64,000 bases of DNA, taken from the IMG/VR virus record IMGVR_UViG_3300050821_010761, positions 40,808-104,807 of that record. One strand, given 5' to 3'. The notes below the pieces were generated by a model. The model was not told the DNA's origin, did not search any database, and worked only from the letters and a program-made list of their open reading frames with translations. Source of the DNA: a virus. Positions within the stretch are counted from its first letter, which is position 1; every line of letters begins with the position of its first letter. The position numbers were made by a program, and so were the translations under genes. Shown piece after piece: positions 48,935-63,929 of the stretch.

Positions 48935-50335
48935 ATGATTGAACAACTTCAGTCACTCATGAAAGCGTTGGAAGCAGGTAGTTATCTTGCATCTCCAGAT
49001 CGGCTAGTTCAGGGTGCAGCCCTAATGATCGAGGATATGTCGCCTGTGATGCAAAACGTCACCTTTGACGATTCTCATATCAAATTGCAAAAGATGCTCC
49101 CGTCGAAAGATGTTAAGAGCCAATTGCATCAGTTTAACCGTCAGCTCGACTATGGTATCTTCGGTGGGTCTGCCCAGTTCGAAGGTGGCATCGGCGAAGA
49201 AGACACTAGCAACTACGTCCGTGCAGTTGTGCCGATGGCATACTACAGCACGACTCGACGTGTAACTGTTGCGTCTAACATGATCGGAGCATTCGACGGT
49301 GTAAAAGCTGAAGACCGCGCCGCTGCTGACGCTGCAATGAAACTCGCTGGCGATATCGAATTTGACTCCTTCCGTGGACAAGCAGATTTCTCTAACGCTG
49401 GTGTTTTCAACGGTAACCCCCTTGCTGTTGCAAAAGTTCCGAACATGATTGGTGTTGACCAACAGGTTCGTCAGTCGGACGCTCAGTCCAACACACAAGA
49501 CTTGATGTTCGCAGAATTTGGTTCAGACCAAACTGTTGTTCTGTCGGTCGGTGGAACTCTCACTCAGTCGATCATCGAAGATAGCTCGGTCCGTTCAGCA
49601 ATGAACATGGGCGCAGCTGATCGTTTGATCCTGGATCCGATCTCGTTGTCGGCTTATAACAAGATCGCCCACGCCAAAGAACGTATTATGTTGGCTGGTT
49701 CGGCTCAAGAAGCTACTGGCGCTCACTTGCGTACTCAGTGGACTTCGTCTGCAATCGTTAGCTTGGAAGCTTCGCGTTTCTTGTCTGGAAAAACTCGTCC
49801 AGCACGTGCTCGCGGTGGTTCTCCTGCTGCTCCTGCTGCTCCTGCTTTGGCAGACGCTGGTGCCGCTGGCTCTCTCTTGCAAGCTGGTACTTACTGGTAC
49901 TACGTTACTTCTGTTTCGATGCGCGGCGAATCGTTCCCGTCTCCCGCTGCTTCAGTACCCGTTACTGCTGCTGGCGACCAAGTAAACGTTACAATCACTG
50001 CAGTGTCAGGCGCTCAGTATTACAACGTGTATCGTTCAGGTGCTGGTGGATCTGCGGCTTCCGCAAAATTCATCGGTCGTATCGCCCAGAACAACGGCAA
50101 CCCGATCTTCGTCGATCTTGGTAACCGTCAACCTGGTTCGGTCACTGGATTCTTGATCCAAGGCAACACGATGGGCTTTGCTCAATTAGCTCCTTACAGC
50201 AAATTAAAACTTGCAGTAAATGATTTAAGTTTGCCCGAGGCGCACTTTAGGTTCCTTAGTTTGGCCATGTACCAACCACGTAAAAACGTTCTCTTGGAGA
50301 ACATTACTGGTCAGCTGATTCCTGGTGGCGGCTAA
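48935..50335 (+). CDS. Major capsid protein with an Fn3-like insertion
   Basis: 466 aa. The order N-terminal arm, central domain with ADRLILDPISLSAYNKIAHAKERI (HK97-type P-domain feel), then a Gly/Pro-rich hinge and a C-terminal half fits a capsid protein. Residues about 290-385 look inserted: an Ala/Pro linker, then GTYWYYVTSVSMRGESFPS and VNVTITAVSGAQYYNVYRSG, an Ig/fibronectin-type fold often exposed on capsids. The N-terminal arm ALEAGSYLASPDRLVQGAAL resembles the protease tail. It uses C-ending codons, as expected for a highly expressed gene. A strong terminator follows. Confidence 0.85.
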   Translation: MIEQLQSLMKALEAGSYLASPDRLVQGAALMIEDMSPVMQNVTFDDSHIKLQKMLPSKDVKSQLHQFNRQLDYGIFGGSAQFEGGIGEEDTSNYVRAVVPMAYYSTTRRVTVASNMIGAFDGVKAEDRAAADAAMKLAGDIEFDSFRGQADFSNAGVFNGNPLAVAKVPNMIGVDQQVRQSDAQSNTQDLMFAEFGSDQTVVLSVGGTLTQSIIEDSSVRSAMNMGAADRLILDPISLSAYNKIAHAKERIMLAGSAQEATGAHLRTQWTSSAIVSLEASRFLSGKTRPARARGGSPAAPAAPALADAGAAGSLLQAGTYWYYVTSVSMRGESFPSPAASVPVTAAGDQVNVTITAVSGAQYYNVYRSGAGGSAASAKFIGRIAQNNGNPIFVDLGNRQPGSVTGFLIQGNTMGFAQLAPYSKLKLAVNDLSLPEAHFRFLSLAMYQPRKNVLLENITGQLIPGGG

Positions 50336-56071: not shown

Positions 56072-56904
56072 TGGATTTCAGAGAGACTGGACAAAAAACA
56101 TCGGGTACAGCAGTATATCCCGTTCACGCACAACAAACGTCTGGACTTTTAACCAGATGTGAGCCTTTACTTGATGTCAATAAATTCAAGCGCATATTCT
56201 TGACTGGCATTCCCCTAAGACTCAGAACTGGCGGAGTGATTACAGACGAAATCATCAGAGAAAGACTAAATTGGGCAATGAATGAAGCAGAGTTGATGAT
56301 TGGTTCCACTATCACACGTGAAGCCTTCATGCACAAAGTTCCATTCGATTATGCTTTATATAAATCCTACATTCACATCATGGCAGAAAAGGGTCCTATT
56401 ATTAGCCTTGAATCTTTAGCAATTGTGAGCGCCGACAATAACAATATTTTTACAATTCCCCCAACTTGGATCGAATGTACAAACTTCTCGAAGCGTTTGA
56501 TCAACGTCGTTCCACTTTTGGCTGCATATGGTGTCAACCAAGTTGGTGGTGCCGTAGGTAATGCTGGTATAGCATTTTTGACTGTCATGGATGGTCTTAA
56601 TTGGGTTCCTGCTTATTGGCAGATTAATTATACGGCTGGTCTTTCCAATACAGAAGGCCAAGTACCAATTCCAGTGAACGAGCTTATCGGTACAATTGCT
56701 GCCATTGATTTGTTGAGCATGATCGCAGCCACTTTCCTCTTCAACTCACAATCGCAAAGTCAAGACGGTATCAGTCAAAGTAGTTCTGGTCCAGGACCAA
56801 ACGTATACGCGAGACGTATAGAAGACCTAGAGAAAAAACGTGAAGTGCTCAAGAAACAGCTGAGATCGATTTTTTCGAACAGATATCTTGTCGGGAATTT
56901 CTAA
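56071..56904 (+). CDS. Possible neck or head-completion protein (GTG start)
   Basis: The start is GTG 56071, which overlaps the TAG of the previous gene; the longer frame from TTG 56056 is less likely. About 277 aa: an N-terminal strand region, a helical bundle (RERLNWAMNEAELMIGSTITREAF), then ADNNNIFTIPPTWIEC and a WQINYTAG strand, ending in a coiled coil (RRIEDLEKKREVLKKQL). Such layout is common in head-tail connector proteins, but no motif proves it. Confidence 0.5.
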   Translation: MDFRETGQKTSGTAVYPVHAQQTSGLLTRCEPLLDVNKFKRIFLTGIPLRLRTGGVITDEIIRERLNWAMNEAELMIGSTITREAFMHKVPFDYALYKSYIHIMAEKGPIISLESLAIVSADNNNIFTIPPTWIECTNFSKRLINVVPLLAAYGVNQVGGAVGNAGIAFLTVMDGLNWVPAYWQINYTAGLSNTEGQVPIPVNELIGTIAAIDLLSMIAATFLFNSQSQSQDGISQSSSGPGPNVYARRIEDLEKKREVLKKQLRSIFSNRYLVGNF

Positions 56905-57965
56905 TGGCTGCGGCGGCGAAAAGAGGCGAGGGCGTCCACAACAGCTACAAAGAAGAAGCAAAAAAAGGATGCGACGTATTATTCCGCGTAAAGATTAAAG
57001 GTAGAAAAACTCTTGTTGATGATATTCCTCTGCATATGTCACTTAAAATTTTTAGTGATCCCAAGGAATACGACTTAGATGAACTTAAGTCTTATGTAAA
57101 AGAACATGATATTTGCTCGCCAGATCCTAAAGATCTCAAATTAACTCCCATCATCTTCACCGCAGAAAAATCGAAACTCGATTACTATATGCTTAAGATA
57201 GAGGGTTTGCCTCCAAAATATAAAGCTCTATATGATCATTATAAGCATGTCGGTAATGTTTACAAAGAATTCATGACTCACGTCACCATAGATAAAGCGT
57301 TGTATGATGATTTGAAAGAAAATGGCATAAAAGCAGAAGATATAGAATTTGGTCCACTAATGGTAGAGCATGGTTCAAATAACGCCATTCATACTTTCGA
57401 CAAATCGGAAAAACTGGACAAAGGTATTAAACACGTTGCTGCTGCTCTTGGAGTAGTTGGCGCTATGGCTTCTCAGCCAGCAAAAGCTCCTGCTCCCCAA
57501 GCTGATCGTTCACCTGCTATGGTACAGCCAAATGCCTATAGTAGCAAAAGAATGCTTAATACTATATCATCAGTGGAAAGTCAACACGGCAAGTTTCAAA
57601 ATCATAAGCCCGTTGGTGGTATTCACGGTGGGGAGAGCGCTTATGGCAAATATGCTCTTATGCCTGCGACTATCAGAGACACCATCCATATGGATCCTCA
57701 ATTAAAAATCAAGCATGCAAAAGCTATGAATCTACGTGGCGATGATATGCGACGCTACATGGAAGATAATCCAGGATTAGAAGATACGATAGCGCAGAAA
57801 CATTTATCAAGATTAGAGCATCACTTTGGACAAAATCCAGAGAAAATTGGTTATGCATGGCTTAACGGTGTTCGCGGTACCTATAAGGCTGGCAAGAATA
57901 AGATGGACATTTCGAATCACTGGCATGTGAAAAAAATAAAAGATGCCTATTCAAAGGAAAAATAA
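56904..57965 (+). CDS. 2H-phosphoesterase-like domain fused to transglycosylase-like domain, 353 aa
   Basis: The N-terminal 165 residues hold two HxS/T motifs 82 residues apart: PLHMSLKIF (His44, Ser46) and FMTHVTIDK (His126, Thr128). That spacing and context fit the 2H phosphoesterase (LigT-like) superfamily, which acts on 2',3'-cyclic or cyclic oligonucleotide phosphates. After an Ala/Pro-rich linker, residues 215-330 contain ISSVESQHGKF (Glu225) and GGESAYGKYALMP, then HHFGQNPEKIGYAWLNG, like the lysozyme-type transglycosylase layout. It overlaps its neighbours by one base, so it is in the late operon. The two-domain reading is by motif. Confidence 0.6.
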   Translation: MAAAAKRGEGVHNSYKEEAKKGCDVLFRVKIKGRKTLVDDIPLHMSLKIFSDPKEYDLDELKSYVKEHDICSPDPKDLKLTPIIFTAEKSKLDYYMLKIEGLPPKYKALYDHYKHVGNVYKEFMTHVTIDKALYDDLKENGIKAEDIEFGPLMVEHGSNNAIHTFDKSEKLDKGIKHVAAALGVVGAMASQPAKAPAPQADRSPAMVQPNAYSSKRMLNTISSVESQHGKFQNHKPVGGIHGGESAYGKYALMPATIRDTIHMDPQLKIKHAKAMNLRGDDMRRYMEDNPGLEDTIAQKHLSRLEHHFGQNPEKIGYAWLNGVRGTYKAGKNKMDISNHWHVKKIKDAYSKEK

Positions 57966-58475: not shown

Positions 58476-58643
58476 GTGGCAAATAAAAAGATAAAATCTT
58501 GTAAAAAATCTACGAATGTTCGCGCAAAACAGGGAATGAACGCATCTGAATGGGACGCATTCATGAAAACGGTTGAATCTGTAAAGACAGAAGCAGACGA
58601 AAAACTTAAAGAAATTTCGCAAATTTGTTTAAAGAGAGCATAA
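58476..58643 (+). CDS. Small basic protein, 55 aa (GTG start)
   Basis: A frame opens at GTG 58476, right after the previous stop, and ends in TAA 58643, whose last base is the A of the next ATG. Preceding bases include GGAGGGC. Composition is Lys-rich (KKIKSCKKST) with a helical C-terminal half. The fit between neighbours supports it. Confidence 0.6.
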   Translation: MANKKIKSCKKSTNVRAKQGMNASEWDAFMKTVESVKTEADEKLKEISQICLKRA

Positions 58644-59608
58644 TGGCAGATAACGGCGCTAATGATCCAAATAAACCGCTCGATCTAAGTGCGGATCTAC
58701 AAATCGATGCTATTCCAGAATATGCACCGTATGTACAGATGTCTTTCGATCTTGATAGATTGGAGGATTTCGTAGTTGGTCTTGGAGTCGAGTTCCTTCA
58801 CTATAAAGGACTGCCTAGCCCTATTGGTAAGAAGGATCGTGGTGACTATCGTAGAAGCGATGGCGTAGATACAATTACGTCAAACGGCATGATTTATACC
58901 ATGGCTGGTCGTTTTACTGCCACTATGACAGACAATAGCAAAACTCGTGAAAGAAACAGCGGCAGCGTATTGGATGCATCTGAGAGTAAACTGGTAATGC
59001 CTCGTTTTTATAACAACTTAGGTCTGGCCGATGGGGATAGGATATATCTTTCTCCTGGTGATAGAATCTATGTAGCCGACCCAACTGTCGACGTTTTGGT
59101 CAGCAATCCACAACAAATGGACTATACTTTTGATCAAGACAACGTTCCCATGTTTCCGATTGTAAAAATGGAAGTACCGCTCATTGACAGTCGTGGCTTC
59201 GAATACGTGGAAAATGTCGATTATGCAATCACCAAAGATGGCAATATTCGGTGGATCACTGGCGGAAGAAATCCTGGGATTGACCCAAGTACTGGAAAAG
59301 GCAGGATTTATTCAATAAGATATCTTTACAGATCTTATTGGTATATTACGATTCTCTTGAAAGAAGTAAGAGTTACAAATATTACGGAAAATGGCGTCAG
59401 AACACCAGAACGCATGCCTATGCATGCCATTGCACAAAGAGAATATATTTATCATAATCAAAATCGTGGTAATGCGTTGAATCAAAACAAGCCTAAAGAT
59501 CCGAAAAGAGTGGATTTACCACCAGTTGAGTCAGAAAATCCAGCTAAATATGGTAATGGCATTAAAGTAGAAATGGATGCTTATGGTGATGGGGACGAAG
59601 AGTCCTAG
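58643..59608 (+). CDS. Virion structural protein, 321 aa
   Basis: The start is ATG 58643, with AAAGAGAG upstream; a TTG six codons earlier is less likely. Strand-rich with aromatic-rich stretches (YSIRYLYRSYWYITILL, FEYVENVDYAI) and a charged C-terminal tail. The GDRIYxxPGDRIYVADP pair suggests a beta-sandwich. The gene order connector, this, 170-aa protein is typical of neck or baseplate areas. No specific family. Confidence 0.6.
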   Translation: MADNGANDPNKPLDLSADLQIDAIPEYAPYVQMSFDLDRLEDFVVGLGVEFLHYKGLPSPIGKKDRGDYRRSDGVDTITSNGMIYTMAGRFTATMTDNSKTRERNSGSVLDASESKLVMPRFYNNLGLADGDRIYLSPGDRIYVADPTVDVLVSNPQQMDYTFDQDNVPMFPIVKMEVPLIDSRGFEYVENVDYAITKDGNIRWITGGRNPGIDPSTGKGRIYSIRYLYRSYWYITILLKEVRVTNITENGVRTPERMPMHAIAQREYIYHNQNRGNALNQNKPKDPKRVDLPPVESENPAKYGNGIKVEMDAYGDGDEES

Positions 59609-60175: not shown

Positions 60176-61114
60176 GTGTCCTCTGGCGCTAATTTCTTTT
60201 TAAAGAAAACACTAGGCGAAGATTTTCTTCAGTCATTGGAGAAATTTGAATTGTGGAAGATGGGAACTAAAACCGTCGTAGATCCAGAAGAAATTAAAAT
60301 TGCGCTAAAAATCGTTCCACGCACTCTAATGAGCATGCTTATTCATAATTTGACTAGCATGGAAATCGGCGATACCAAAGAAATAGAGATTCCAGTCGAG
60401 AGTAGTAGTCCTCATCAAGCCATGGTCAGAGTCAATAAGCACGAGAGGGACGTTTACTCTGGTGAGATCGAGCAAGGCAACAAAAAGATAGCGGAATTCA
60501 AATATCGTTCTATCCCTGGTGTTGGTTTGGTTATCATGAGCGCTCTAGAGCTTTATGATGTTGAAAGACTCAATGATCATTCTAAAGACCACTCTATGGA
60601 AATGGAACATAAAGTCCAAAGAATGATTGATGATCGCCTAGCATTACACGATTTAATCGGTAAGGTTGTTGACAAGAAGTTATCCGAACGTGAAGCCATA
60701 CAAAAGGTGATTCTTCATAAACTTACAGAAGAACTTCATAGAGAGAAAGAAGGCGTTGGTCCTAGTGAGCAAGTAAGACAATTACACGAAACGCAGGATG
60801 AACTTAGAAAAGAAAATAAAAAATTAAAAAAGAAACTTGCACTTAATGAGTTCTTAGAAGAGAGAAAGAAAAAGTTACACAAAAAAGAACACCCAATATC
60901 TCTTTCCAAGGGTGAGCACGTTTCTTGTCCAGATTGCGGTAAAAACATATTCGACGGTACGGTATTTGCTGGCTGTATTTGTTATGGCGACGATATGGAT
61001 AAAAAATTATACATTACCAAATCAGAAGGTGGAGTAAAAGTAAGATTCGGTAAAGGATGGGATCCAGAAAATATTGAAATGCTATTGGATGTCCTGAGAG
61101 GCAAACGTGGATAA
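60176..61114 (+). CDS. Coiled-coil zinc protein coupled to the palm-domain gene, 312 aa (GTG start)
   Basis: Starts at GTG 60176 with AGGAG six bases upstream. Residues 1-145 are mixed alpha/beta, about 150-245 form a coiled coil (ETQDELRKENKKLKKKLALNEFLEERKKK), and the C-terminus has CPDCGKNIFDGTVFAGCICYGD, a four-Cys zinc site (about 258-278). Its end overlaps the next gene's start by eight bases, so the two are made together. The KSE tripeptide appears once. A partner for the next protein is a fair guess. Confidence 0.6.
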   Translation: MSSGANFFLKKTLGEDFLQSLEKFELWKMGTKTVVDPEEIKIALKIVPRTLMSMLIHNLTSMEIGDTKEIEIPVESSSPHQAMVRVNKHERDVYSGEIEQGNKKIAEFKYRSIPGVGLVIMSALELYDVERLNDHSKDHSMEMEHKVQRMIDDRLALHDLIGKVVDKKLSEREAIQKVILHKLTEELHREKEGVGPSEQVRQLHETQDELRKENKKLKKKLALNEFLEERKKKLHKKEHPISLSKGEHVSCPDCGKNIFDGTVFAGCICYGDDMDKKLYITKSEGGVKVRFGKGWDPENIEMLLDVLRGKRG

Positions 61115-62975
61115 TTTCAGATGGATTGTCAACTATGATGGTGATGATGCTGGACGCATGATTGGCCGAGCAATTTTGTCTAACCAGTTGGGTGCATTGC
61201 ATGAGGCATCGGATAGGATAAAACTTGGTAACGAGATAGTAGAAAAATGGTCAAATGATCATGGAGGTGTCACTATATCTAATGGCGGTGACCAGGGTGC
61301 ATTTGAAGTTCCCCATGAAGCACTTGAGAGTCTCGATCAACTAATGAGAGATTATCATTTTGCTACTCAGCTTACTATGTCGATGGGAGTAGGTAAAACT
61401 CTATCTGAATCTGGAAAAGCATTGTTAGCTGCAAAATTTAGAGGTAAGAATCAAATTGTATATTATGATTTTTCCGTAGAAAATGACTTAGAAAAAGTAA
61501 AAAATAATTTAACGCATGGCACTGCTTCCGAAGAAGAAAAAAAACAGGGCGAAGCTTACTTACAACCAACTGAACAGGAAATTCCAATGGACGAGAAAGA
61601 TAAATATAAAAACGCGTACGCGCAAACAGATCCAGAACCATTGTGGAATTCCGAAGAACCTGACGATGCTGGTGGTCCACAACCAATGCATGATTCTGAA
61701 CAGCTTCCAACAGACGGTACATTAACGCAGGAACACGATTGTCCTTACTGTAATGAACTACAAGCCCAAAATATAACCGATGAAGATTGTCCATACTGCG
61801 CTGACACTGGACATGATCCCAATGCACCTGATCATTTGGATGATTGCCAATATTGTGCCGTAATGAGCCACGATCCAGATATGGAAGGTCATACTGATGA
61901 TTGCGCTTATTGTCAAGAAATGGCAATGCACGATCCTATGATGGATGGTCATGCCGATGATTGTCCGTATTGCGCTAGATCGCATGATCCAAACATGGAA
62001 GGTCACCCAGAAGATTGTCAATATTGTGCTAGAGCAGATCAATGGAATGGCGGGAATGGTCAAGAGATCGAACCTAGCAGCCCTTCTTCTCAAGTACTGC
62101 CTACCACTCAAGATAGCCAGGATTATGATGGTCAGGACTTACCTCGTCCCGATCTAGATAAACCGTCGGCTATTTCTGCGGTTCCATCAGGACTTGGATT
62201 TAATACGGATTCACAAACAAATGAAAATATCAAGTTAGAAGATACGCAAGGAAAGCAAGATCCAAATATGGATGCTCAAATGGCTCAAGCTAGCAATCCA
62301 GAGGGTCAAGAGACTGTCAACGATATCATTGGTGAAATTGATGCAGTTCCTACCGATGAAGTTCCAGGAAGACCGAAAATTAATCAGACCGACGATGCTA
62401 ACATGGCCATTGGCACTAATATGGAAGGCAACGTAAGCAGAGAAGATAGTTACAGTCAGGATGTTCCTACTGATTTGGGACTTGGAGAAGAACCAGACAA
62501 TGATTCCCCAGACATTAGTTCAGTCCTTAAAGAAGGTTTAGACAATCACGCCGATAGTATTAAACGTGAGAAAGTCATGGAAATGGTCGGCGAAGCTTTG
62601 GAAGGTTTTAAGGCTAGTAAAATGATTATTGAGAGAGCTAAAACTGAAGCTCCCCAATTCTATCAGTCGTCCATTGCGATGCTTAAAGCTATGATCGAGA
62701 TGTGTAAGATGCTTGGTTTAGACCAACAACAAGCGATGACTCCATCTGGCGTTTTAAATCCACAAGCGTCAGCCGATGAACCAATAGTTGATTCGAAAGA
62801 TCAAGTAGAAGATCCTGAAGCTTCGTATGAAGCACACATGAGCCAGCCTGGTAATACGCCAATGGGTGGACCAGAAAGTGCTGAACAAGACGGGCATCCA
62901 AACTACTCGAATCTTTTTCCTCCTCACCCAGATGGGAAGGCGGGAAACTCCGACCCAAAGCTTCAGGGGTTATAG
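61107..62975 (+). CDS. GGDEF/mCpol-like palm domain with tandem CCHH zinc array, 622 aa
   Basis: Residues 1-125 look like a nucleotide-cyclase palm: NYDGDDAGRMIG (Asp11, Asp13) as the first metal motif, TISNGGDQGAFEV (Gly60-Gly61-Asp62) at the GGDEF/GGDD hairpin, and MSMGVGKTLS followed by ALLAAKFRGKNQIVYYD, matching the end of GGDEF and minimal CRISPR polymerase domains. Residues about 210-308 hold six DCxYC knuckles, most followed by HDP and GH: repeated C-x2-C-x4-5-H-x6-7-H units. The rest is acidic and disordered with a helical C-terminal region (about 470-560). The second acid of GGDE is Gln here. Product unknown. A -1 frameshift site lies near the end. Confidence 0.65.
   Translation: MDNFRWIVNYDGDDAGRMIGRAILSNQLGALHEASDRIKLGNEIVEKWSNDHGGVTISNGGDQGAFEVPHEALESLDQLMRDYHFATQLTMSMGVGKTLSESGKALLAAKFRGKNQIVYYDFSVENDLEKVKNNLTHGTASEEEKKQGEAYLQPTEQEIPMDEKDKYKNAYAQTDPEPLWNSEEPDDAGGPQPMHDSEQLPTDGTLTQEHDCPYCNELQAQNITDEDCPYCADTGHDPNAPDHLDDCQYCAVMSHDPDMEGHTDDCAYCQEMAMHDPMMDGHADDCPYCARSHDPNMEGHPEDCQYCARADQWNGGNGQEIEPSSPSSQVLPTTQDSQDYDGQDLPRPDLDKPSAISAVPSGLGFNTDSQTNENIKLEDTQGKQDPNMDAQMAQASNPEGQETVNDIIGEIDAVPTDEVPGRPKINQTDDANMAIGTNMEGNVSREDSYSQDVPTDLGLGEEPDNDSPDISSVLKEGLDNHADSIKREKVMEMVGEALEGFKASKMIIERAKTEAPQFYQSSIAMLKAMIEMCKMLGLDQQQAMTPSGVLNPQASADEPIVDSKDQVEDPEASYEAHMSQPGNTPMGGPESAEQDGHPNYSNLFPPHPDGKAGNSDPKLQGL
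62942..62948 (+). other. -1 ribosomal frameshift slippery heptamer GGGAAAC
   Basis: The heptamer is in phase G-GGA-AAC relative to the 622-aa frame (codons 613-614), as needed for simultaneous tRNA slippage. The -1 frame is open to 63205. GGGAAGG just upstream could act as a stimulatory Shine-Dalgarno-like site, and downstream hairpins can form (62967-62971 with 62979-62983, or 62975-62979 with the TGCCC near 62994). Confidence 0.6.
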
Positions 62976-63205
62976 GGCAACCCGTAGGAAAACTGCCCAC
63001 CAGTCAAACTACTCCGCACGTACCTAGGACACCTTTCCTAGAAGGGGCAGTAAATGATAAAGGACAAAAAAAGGTCATCGATCCTATTACTGGCAAAACC
63101 AGATGGATTACAATGCGTGAAGGAAAAGTTAAGAGTCCAACTGGAGTACCAGTAAAACCAGAGAGAATAGAAGAAAATGGCCCTAAAGTTCCAGCTAAAC
63201 GTTGA
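62948..63205 (+). CDS. -1 frameshift extension of the palm-domain protein, 85 codons
   Basis: After slippage at GGGAAAC translation continues LRPKASGVIGQPVGKL, then a Pro/Thr-rich linker, VIDPITGKTRWI and SPTGVPVKPERI, ending in TGA at 63203-63205. The resulting fusion would have 614 plus 85, or 699, residues. The frame is open back to a TGA at 62882 but has no ATG, GTG or TTG before the RWI segment, so independent initiation is unlikely. It overlaps the next gene by 29 bases. Confidence 0.55.
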   Translation, partial: LRPKASGVIGQPVGKLPTSQTTPHVPRTPFLEGAVNDKGQKKVIDPITGKTRWITMREGKVKSPTGVPVKPERIEENGPKVPAKR

Positions 63206-63929
63206 AGAGATCGCTAGTACATTCGGCGAATTTGCAAAGGAAGTAGCGGATGACATGCGAAAAGCAGTCAGGGATCTGGCTACTCTTACACGTGCGCAGA
63301 TTCACCTGGAAGTGCAGTCCGAATTGCATTCGACTAGAAAAATTTATCTGGATAATCTTTCTGATGCCACGGAATCTTCCCCTGGAGTTTGGACGATTAC
63401 TTTGGACGAACCTGCTTTTTTCATTGAAGAAGGAATTGAGCCAAATCATGACATGAAGCCCGATTTACTTAAAGGAAAGCCTTATCGAGTAATTCCTTTC
63501 AAATATAATACTGCTCCTACTGAAACGGTACCCTCAACTCAATTGCTAATTACGGAAATCAAGAAAAAGCTAAGAAATGAAAAGATACCGTACAAGAAGA
63601 TTGAATACAATAAAGACGGTAGTCCAAAAGTAGGGAAGCTTCATGATTTAAGGTGGGGCACTCAGATACCTGGTGGAAACCAAATACCTGGAAGAGGCAA
63701 TACGCCGCAGCTCAAAGGCTTGTCGATTTACCAACAGATCACGAAAAGCGGTAACGTAAGACGTGATATATTAACATTTCGCACAGTGAGCGCTGGACCA
63801 AAGAGCCAAGGGAAATGGTTGCACCCTGGGCTGAAAGCCAAGCATTACATGGACAAAGCATTCGATGAAGCAATGACCAAATGGGAGCAAGAAATTTTGC
63901 CTGAAATCATGCAGAAGTGGGGTAGATAA
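63177..63929 (+). CDS. Tail-completion/HK97 gp10-like protein, 250 aa
   Basis: The ATG at 63177 lies within the frameshift extension. The protein begins with helices (EEIASTFGEFAKEVADDMRKAVRDLATLTRAQIHLEV) and ends YMDKAFDEAMTKWEQEILPEIM, the helix order of gp10-type head-tail joining proteins; the middle is a Gly/Pro-rich beta section. This suggests a connector or tail completion protein. No catalytic residues. Confidence 0.5.
   Translation: MALKFQLNVEEIASTFGEFAKEVADDMRKAVRDLATLTRAQIHLEVQSELHSTRKIYLDNLSDATESSPGVWTITLDEPAFFIEEGIEPNHDMKPDLLKGKPYRVIPFKYNTAPTETVPSTQLLITEIKKKLRNEKIPYKKIEYNKDGSPKVGKLHDLRWGTQIPGGNQIPGRGNTPQLKGLSIYQQITKSGNVRRDILTFRTVSAGPKSQGKWLHPGLKAKHYMDKAFDEAMTKWEQEILPEIMQKWGR

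Follow-up and report, generated by a model that had tools for sequence, protein, structure and literature searches.

Why should a phage carry, in a gene that lies among those for its virion, a domain of the kind from which bacteria make immune nucleotide signals, and what could the phage gain from it? The question is raised by the gene at positions 61107-62975 of the window, i.e., the 64,000-nucleotide stretch of DNA analyzed here (G000:C1:40808-104807), which is part of a virus record of 168,807 bases. In bacteria, the mCpol domain is known as one of the two halves of an anti-phage system, namely the half that makes the signal, and this system detects phage proteins that soak up nucleotide signals. 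The domain family as such is already known, and no mention of a phage mCpol was found in the literature searched; new with respect to that literature is a conserved mCpol domain with an intact active site in the neck module of phages. The phage protein may be understood as a neck-module, probably virion-associated carrier that bears an N-terminal mCpol-family enzyme, and the cyclic dinucleotides of this enzyme would serve the manipulation of host immunity, a reading to which we assign a probability of about 0.45.

A preliminary description of the gene, which had noted a GGDEF/mCpol-like palm domain together with a six-knuckle zinc array and had proposed an enzyme that makes or binds nucleotide signals, is confirmed in its observations and partly supported in its interpretation. 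Its open reading frame was present at 61107-62975, but the 622 aa represent the zero-frame product only, and a -1-frame tail extends to position 63205 (Table 1). The GTG start lies inside the last codons of the upstream gene for a 312-aa protein, resulting in an overlap of 8 bases with the upstream stop. This neighbor (60176-61114) has a zinc-ribbon-like end (CPDC...CIC) and a conserved C terminus in nearly all relatives.

Table 1. Features of the window in the region of the mCpol carrier gene
Feature	Position	Strand	Basis or remark
Major capsid protein, C-terminal part	49175..50317	+	49-51% identity to Myxococcus phage Mx1 MCP
353-aa 2H-transglycosylase-like protein	56904..57965	+	2H domain 56943-57395; transglycosylase-like (SLT) domain 57552-57953
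327-aa virion structural protein	58625..59608	+	Homologue in Mx1 has a match to phrog_1004 (head and packaging)
312-aa upstream gene	60176..61114	+	C-terminal CxxC...CxC motif; overlaps mCpol gene; conserved neighbor
mCpol carrier gene	61107..62975	+	GTG start; zero-frame product 622 aa
mCpol palm domain, residues 8-120	61128..61466	+	Pfam PF18182, NF033576, AF2, Foldseek
Metal-site motif D11-G-D13 (OptS Asp6/Asp8)	61137..61145	+	Alignments; D11 in 66/85, D13 in 78/85 phage palms
Ser35, aligned with OptS Ser30 (base selection)	61209..61211	+	Alignment; role of Ser30 from PMC12657218
G60-G61-D62-Q63-G64, Asp62 at OptS Asp57 position	61284..61298	+	Alignment
Six CxYC zinc-knuckle-like repeats, residues 212-307	61740..62027	+	Sequence pattern; kept in palm-less relatives
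C-terminal helical module, residues 483-536	62553..62714	+	In 84/84 family proteins examined
Slippery heptamer C_CCA_AAG	62954..62960	+	Predicted programmed -1 frameshift site
Conserved C-terminal tail, -1 frame	62960..63205	+	Long form 699 aa; overlaps start of next gene
250-aa downstream neck-type protein	63177..63929	+	phrog_16819; weak tail completion/Neck1 similarity; conserved neighbor

Residues 8-120 are almost certainly an mCpol domain proper, of the type of the Panoptes synthase OptS. They matched the Pfam mCpol profile PF18182 with E=8.5e-13 and 49.1 bits (curated cut-off 26.4) and the NCBIfam profile NF033576 with 40.8 bits, just above the cut-off of 40. When the window palm was compared as a single query with the PDB, only OptS/mCpol chains matched at E<1e-6, and a profile from 29 phage palms matched OptS with E=2e-17. 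The AlphaFold2 model built from 29 phage sequences (mean pLDDT 94.9) has a palm fold, and its best Foldseek matches are the crystal structures of OptS (9pd0, 9mnr, and 9nwn), with TM values of 0.87-0.89 by target length at 1.4-1.7 A; GGDEF and Cas10 structures are far behind, the GGDEF domains with TM values of about 0.5-0.6. The profile search and the structure prediction that the preliminary description had proposed as checks of the N-terminal residues hence bore out its palm domain and narrowed it to mCpol. A generic GGDEF identity was rejected, since fold and profiles favor mCpol; the GG[DE]EF signature is absent, with GGDQG in the window, and no GGDEF Pfam match was obtained at E<=1.

With Panoptes OptS, the phage palm shares the fold (TM 0.89, rmsd 1.4 A, and 30% identity), the metal-site Asp pair, a Ser at the base-selecting position, and the C-terminal GK[ND] motif. 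However, OptS is a stand-alone enzyme of ~125 aa next to the effector OptE, whereas the phage palm is fused into a neck gene and belongs to a separate clade, and the long acidic linker, zinc knuckles, helical module, and frameshift tail of the fusion are absent from OptS. The Cas10 palm of type III CRISPR systems and the GGDEF diguanylate cyclases are members of the same palm superfamily, and the GGD is kept in the phage sequences, but their fold matches are weaker, the phage sequence departs from GG[DE]EF, and the phage protein has neither an HD nor a second palm domain.

The motifs noted earlier are located at the residues originally given, i.e., DGDDAG at 11-16 and NGGDQG at 59-64, with the RGKN ending at 112-115. 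In a near-gapless alignment, Asp11, Asp13, Asp62, and Ser35 correspond to Asp6, Asp8, Asp57, and Ser30 of OptS, and the concern that the aspartates might not gather at one metal site was thereby dispelled. Asp6 and Asp57 of OptS hold the metal and are required for activity, Ser30 selects the base, and the active site is common to two protomers (PMC12657218; PMC12657230). Of the 85 phage palms, 66 have Asp at positions 11, 13, and 62; the median pairwise identity among these 66 is only 36%, and 59 of them keep Ser35. The adenine-contacting Asn34 of OptS, on the other hand, has no conserved counterpart at the aligned position in phage palms, which counts against the reading given above. The dN/dS ratio is 0.04 for L032-L037, the single close pair that is informative in a family with otherwise saturated dS. 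The palm is probably catalytic. The Gln of the GGDQ motif had been suspected of weakening catalysis, but Gln63 follows the metal-binding Asp62 and does not occupy a metal-ligand position; the proven-active OptS has Gly there, and among the 66 intact phage palms, Glu is found in 55 and Gln in 11. An inactivating effect of Gln63 is therefore not supported.

The catalytic site has been lost from 12 of the 85 palms, including that of Myxococcus phage Mx1, while the domain was retained, which argues for some noncatalytic function, at least there. Seven further palms have D11N with D13 and D62 kept (L130, L131, L132, L133, L136, L145, and L149), and an altered use of metal is possible in these. Both groups count against the signaling reading and in favor of an alternative in which the head completion machinery adopted the mCpol fold as a part for dimerization or nucleotide sensing. 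The conserved aspartates would then bind metal-NTP, or else a cyclic nucleotide of the host, without turnover, e.g., as a virion-borne sponge or sensor. The constant location in the neck module and a programmed frameshift of the kind typical of assembly proteins fit such a binding-only or structural palm as well, but the retention of three acidic residues at such low overall identity exceeds what a fold alone would need, and the palm has been lost outright in relatives in which the carrier stays. The alternative is somewhat unlikely as an account of the family.

Phage palms were collected by profile scans of IMG/VR and by scans with two neighboring genes as bait, resulting in 83 distinct further palms and a total of 85 including those of the window and Mx1. 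A tree was built from 30 phage palms, among them those of the window and Mx1, together with 12 mCpols from bacteria and the palms of three Cas10 proteins. All phage palms in it form one clade apart from the bacterial mCpols (support 98/95); they are thus placed outside the OptS clade, within which a synthase would be assigned to Panoptes. The gene order is fixed, with the 327-aa virion protein, a 170-aa protein, the 312-aa protein, the mCpol carrier, the 250-aa neck-type protein, the next neck gene, and the tail sheath. The major capsid protein is encoded farther upstream of this block, and the carrier gene is always found in the interval between capsid and sheath genes. The order holds in every locus with enough flanking sequence, except that single neighbors have no recognizable copy in some of the loci that diverge most. 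Since the same order is seen across loci, Mx1 included, the mCpol carrier is a near-core gene in one lineage of phages of roughly 150-177 kb, a widespread family of large myoviruses.

Mx1 (169.6 kb) is a named isolate of this lineage, and its homologue WNM70340.1, annotated as hypothetical, likewise lies between the major capsid protein and tail sheath genes in the same order, but it has lost the catalytic residues and sits on a long branch. This degenerate member corresponds to positions 14007-15413 of L006. The Bacteroides DAC phages have two of the neck neighbors in common, with no palm or mCpol between them. A scan of GTDB genomes with the phage profile found no prophage or bacterial relatives of the phage clade, and BFVD contained one clearly similar uncharacterized phage protein (A0A6J5L1I5). 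A match in Bacteriophage sp. MT837983 was a GGDEF-EAL-type protein by eye and was placed outside the family.

Among the loci that hold both bait neighbors, the palm is absent only from L083, L085, and L086. The gene begins there at the same start position but continues directly with the knuckles and helical module, which represents a clean N-terminal loss of the palm, and no mCpol was found elsewhere in the 170.6-kb contig of L085. Because the zinc knuckles and the helical module are kept in these three relatives after the loss of the palm, the latter is accessory to a carrier of the neck module, and because the carrier persists, the palm is not essential for assembly.

The putative zinc array of the preliminary description was confirmed in that six DCxYC knuckles are present, with Cys pairs at 212/215, 228/231, 247/250, 266/269, 286/289, and 304/307, four of which fit the C-x2-C...H...H pattern; when the residues of the protein were shuffled 2000 times, at least three CxxC motifs arose only once, so that such an array is hardly ever produced by composition alone. 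The number of knuckles ranges from 0 to 8 across the family. A role of the array as part of the enzyme was rejected, since relatives without the palm retain it and roughly half of the proteins with an intact palm lack it. The zinc-knuckle-like array thus belongs to the carrier, apart from the enzyme. In some members, the helical module is followed by GNAT acetyltransferase domains (L039-L041 by Pfam and L206 by eye). Stretches that resemble ART and ParB in L039, and one that resembles a Zn peptidase in L202, were recognized by eye only. The protein may hence be a carrier with exchangeable enzyme cargo, and its association with the virion, suggested by the position among neck genes, has roughly an even chance.

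The zero-frame reading frame stops just past CCCAAAG, which is predicted to be a conserved programmed -1 frameshift site. An in-frame X_XXY_YYZ heptamer was present within 75 bases of the stop in 39 of the 40 members with a -1-frame tail and, by the same criterion, in 5 of the 28 members with an in-frame tail (Fisher p=2.6e-12, with no correction for relatedness). CCCAAAG accounts for 16 of the heptamers, AAAAAAG for 12, CCCAAAA for 10, and AAAAAAC for 1; elsewhere in the same genes, one in-frame heptamer of these kinds is found per roughly 800 codons. In six relatives, the tail is encoded in the +1 frame and the zero-frame product mostly ends in a PQQ-type sequence, which may point to a +1 or -2 shift. 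An in-frame X_XXY_YYZ just before the stop and a conserved domain in the -1 frame are shared with the frameshifts of the tail assembly chaperone type; the differences are that another gene is concerned, that the conserved tail comprises 80 residues, and that no stable RNA structure was found downstream of the slippery site (z-scores of +0.8 to +1.7). The conserved frameshift is a second unusual feature of the gene and would control two forms of the carrier. Together with the fixed place among virion genes, it would suit a protein of assembly better than a counter-defense factor; counter-defense genes are more often found in variable early regions.

The second gene of interest is located 3.1 kb upstream of the mCpol gene in the same module and encodes a 2H phosphoesterase domain fused to a transglycosylase-like domain. 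Two invariant His residues in HxS/T contexts were found across 32 sequences of the 2H domain, and its model (pLDDT 88) matched the rotavirus VP3 phosphodiesterase, Usb1, a phage BCSR5 phosphodiesterase, and phage Acb1 in Foldseek searches (E 7e-4 to 0.02 and TM about 0.4-0.5); viral proteins that antagonize oligoadenylate signaling rank highest by structure, with Acb1 in the top ten, and the fold is thus related to those of Acb1 and the 2-5A phosphodiesterases of viruses. Acb1 hydrolyzes CBASS signals via an HxT/HxT site (PMC9117128). The protein shares the 2H fold and the two HxS/T motifs with this anti-CBASS phosphoesterase (PF23474), but it is fused to the transglycosylase-like domain, its TM value to Acb1 is only about 0.42, and its Pfam matches, to Acb1 (best E 0.0047, in 3 of 32 members) and LigT, are weak, with none above the curated Acb1 cut-off. 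Other 2H enzymes, i.e., rotavirus VP3 and Usb1, fit as well as or better than Acb1, and a search of ten genomes with the Acb1 family HMM found nothing.

Among 48 loci, 27 have both an intact palm and the 2H gene, 12 the palm only, none the 2H gene only, and 9 neither. L083 and L085 are nested in a clade with palm and 2H and lack both domains; since this counts for roughly a single independent loss of the two together, the co-occurrence is suggestive but without significance on the tree. L083, L085, and L086 are close relatives from which the palm and the 2H-transglycosylase gene are both cleanly gone. A synthase and a putative phosphodiesterase in one cluster, the latter never without an intact palm, would also suit a signal internal to the phage, with a product that acts on its own proteins or timing, e.g., in assembly or lysis, and the 2H gene as the eraser. 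This is improbable, as no phage receptor for cyclic nucleotides was recognized among the neighbors and palm-less phages persist; the 12 palm-bearing loci without the 2H gene weigh against it and against the favored reading alike.

Under the favored reading of host manipulation, the palm is predicted to dimerize like OptS and to form a cyclic dinucleotide from two NTPs, of which one or both are ATP. In the composite site, Asp11, Asp13, and Asp62 of one protomer would hold the metal and the triphosphate, while Ser35 of the other would touch the base. The acidic linker, the optional zinc knuckles, the helical module, and the frameshift-encoded tail would represent the structural carrier. The cyclic dinucleotide most likely would help the phage by disturbing host immunity that is based on nucleotide signals, and a signaling role is preferred to a structural one because the active-site residues are kept, the palm is dispensable, and a 2H phosphoesterase is nearby. 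In the simplest route, the phage product would top up the inhibitory signal that keeps membrane effectors of the Panoptes type off. Removal of 2',3'-c-di-AMP by phage proteins is lethal to Panoptes hosts, and the effector would stay silent if the phage made such a signal itself, while the 2H phosphoesterase of the same module may destroy other immune cyclic nucleotides. The full combination of a virion-delivered synthase that supplies an inhibitory signal with a 2H phosphodiesterase that removes activating ones is unlikely to hold in every part.

Conversely, the cyclase might be directed against competing phages, as a Panoptes-like or CARF/HEPN-type defense in superinfection exclusion. mCpol is known from bacterial defense, including CARF-HEPN-mCpol fusions (PMC12657218), and a PADLOC model was weakly matched, but there is no adjoining effector, and the late module is a late position for exclusion, which makes this use highly improbable. 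No strongly hydrophobic protein with two TM segments was found among the ten structural-module genes from the major capsid protein to position 63926 or in the larger reading frames just downstream. A complete Panoptes pair, i.e., an optSE operon with a 2TM effector, was thus not found in the phage, the neighbors being virion genes of which none encodes two TM helices.

An mCpol with an intact active site that is near-core in a phage lineage reverses the Panoptes story in that phages, too, may make such signals. If true, the supply of a signal would be the reverse of the known counter-defenses of the sponge and nuclease types (Acb/Tad). At one gene position, the family offers a series of natural versions in which the palm is intact, carries D11N, is degenerate, or is missing, and the finding opens the direct question of whether Panoptes may be silenced by the phage mCpol while the phage destroys CBASS signals.
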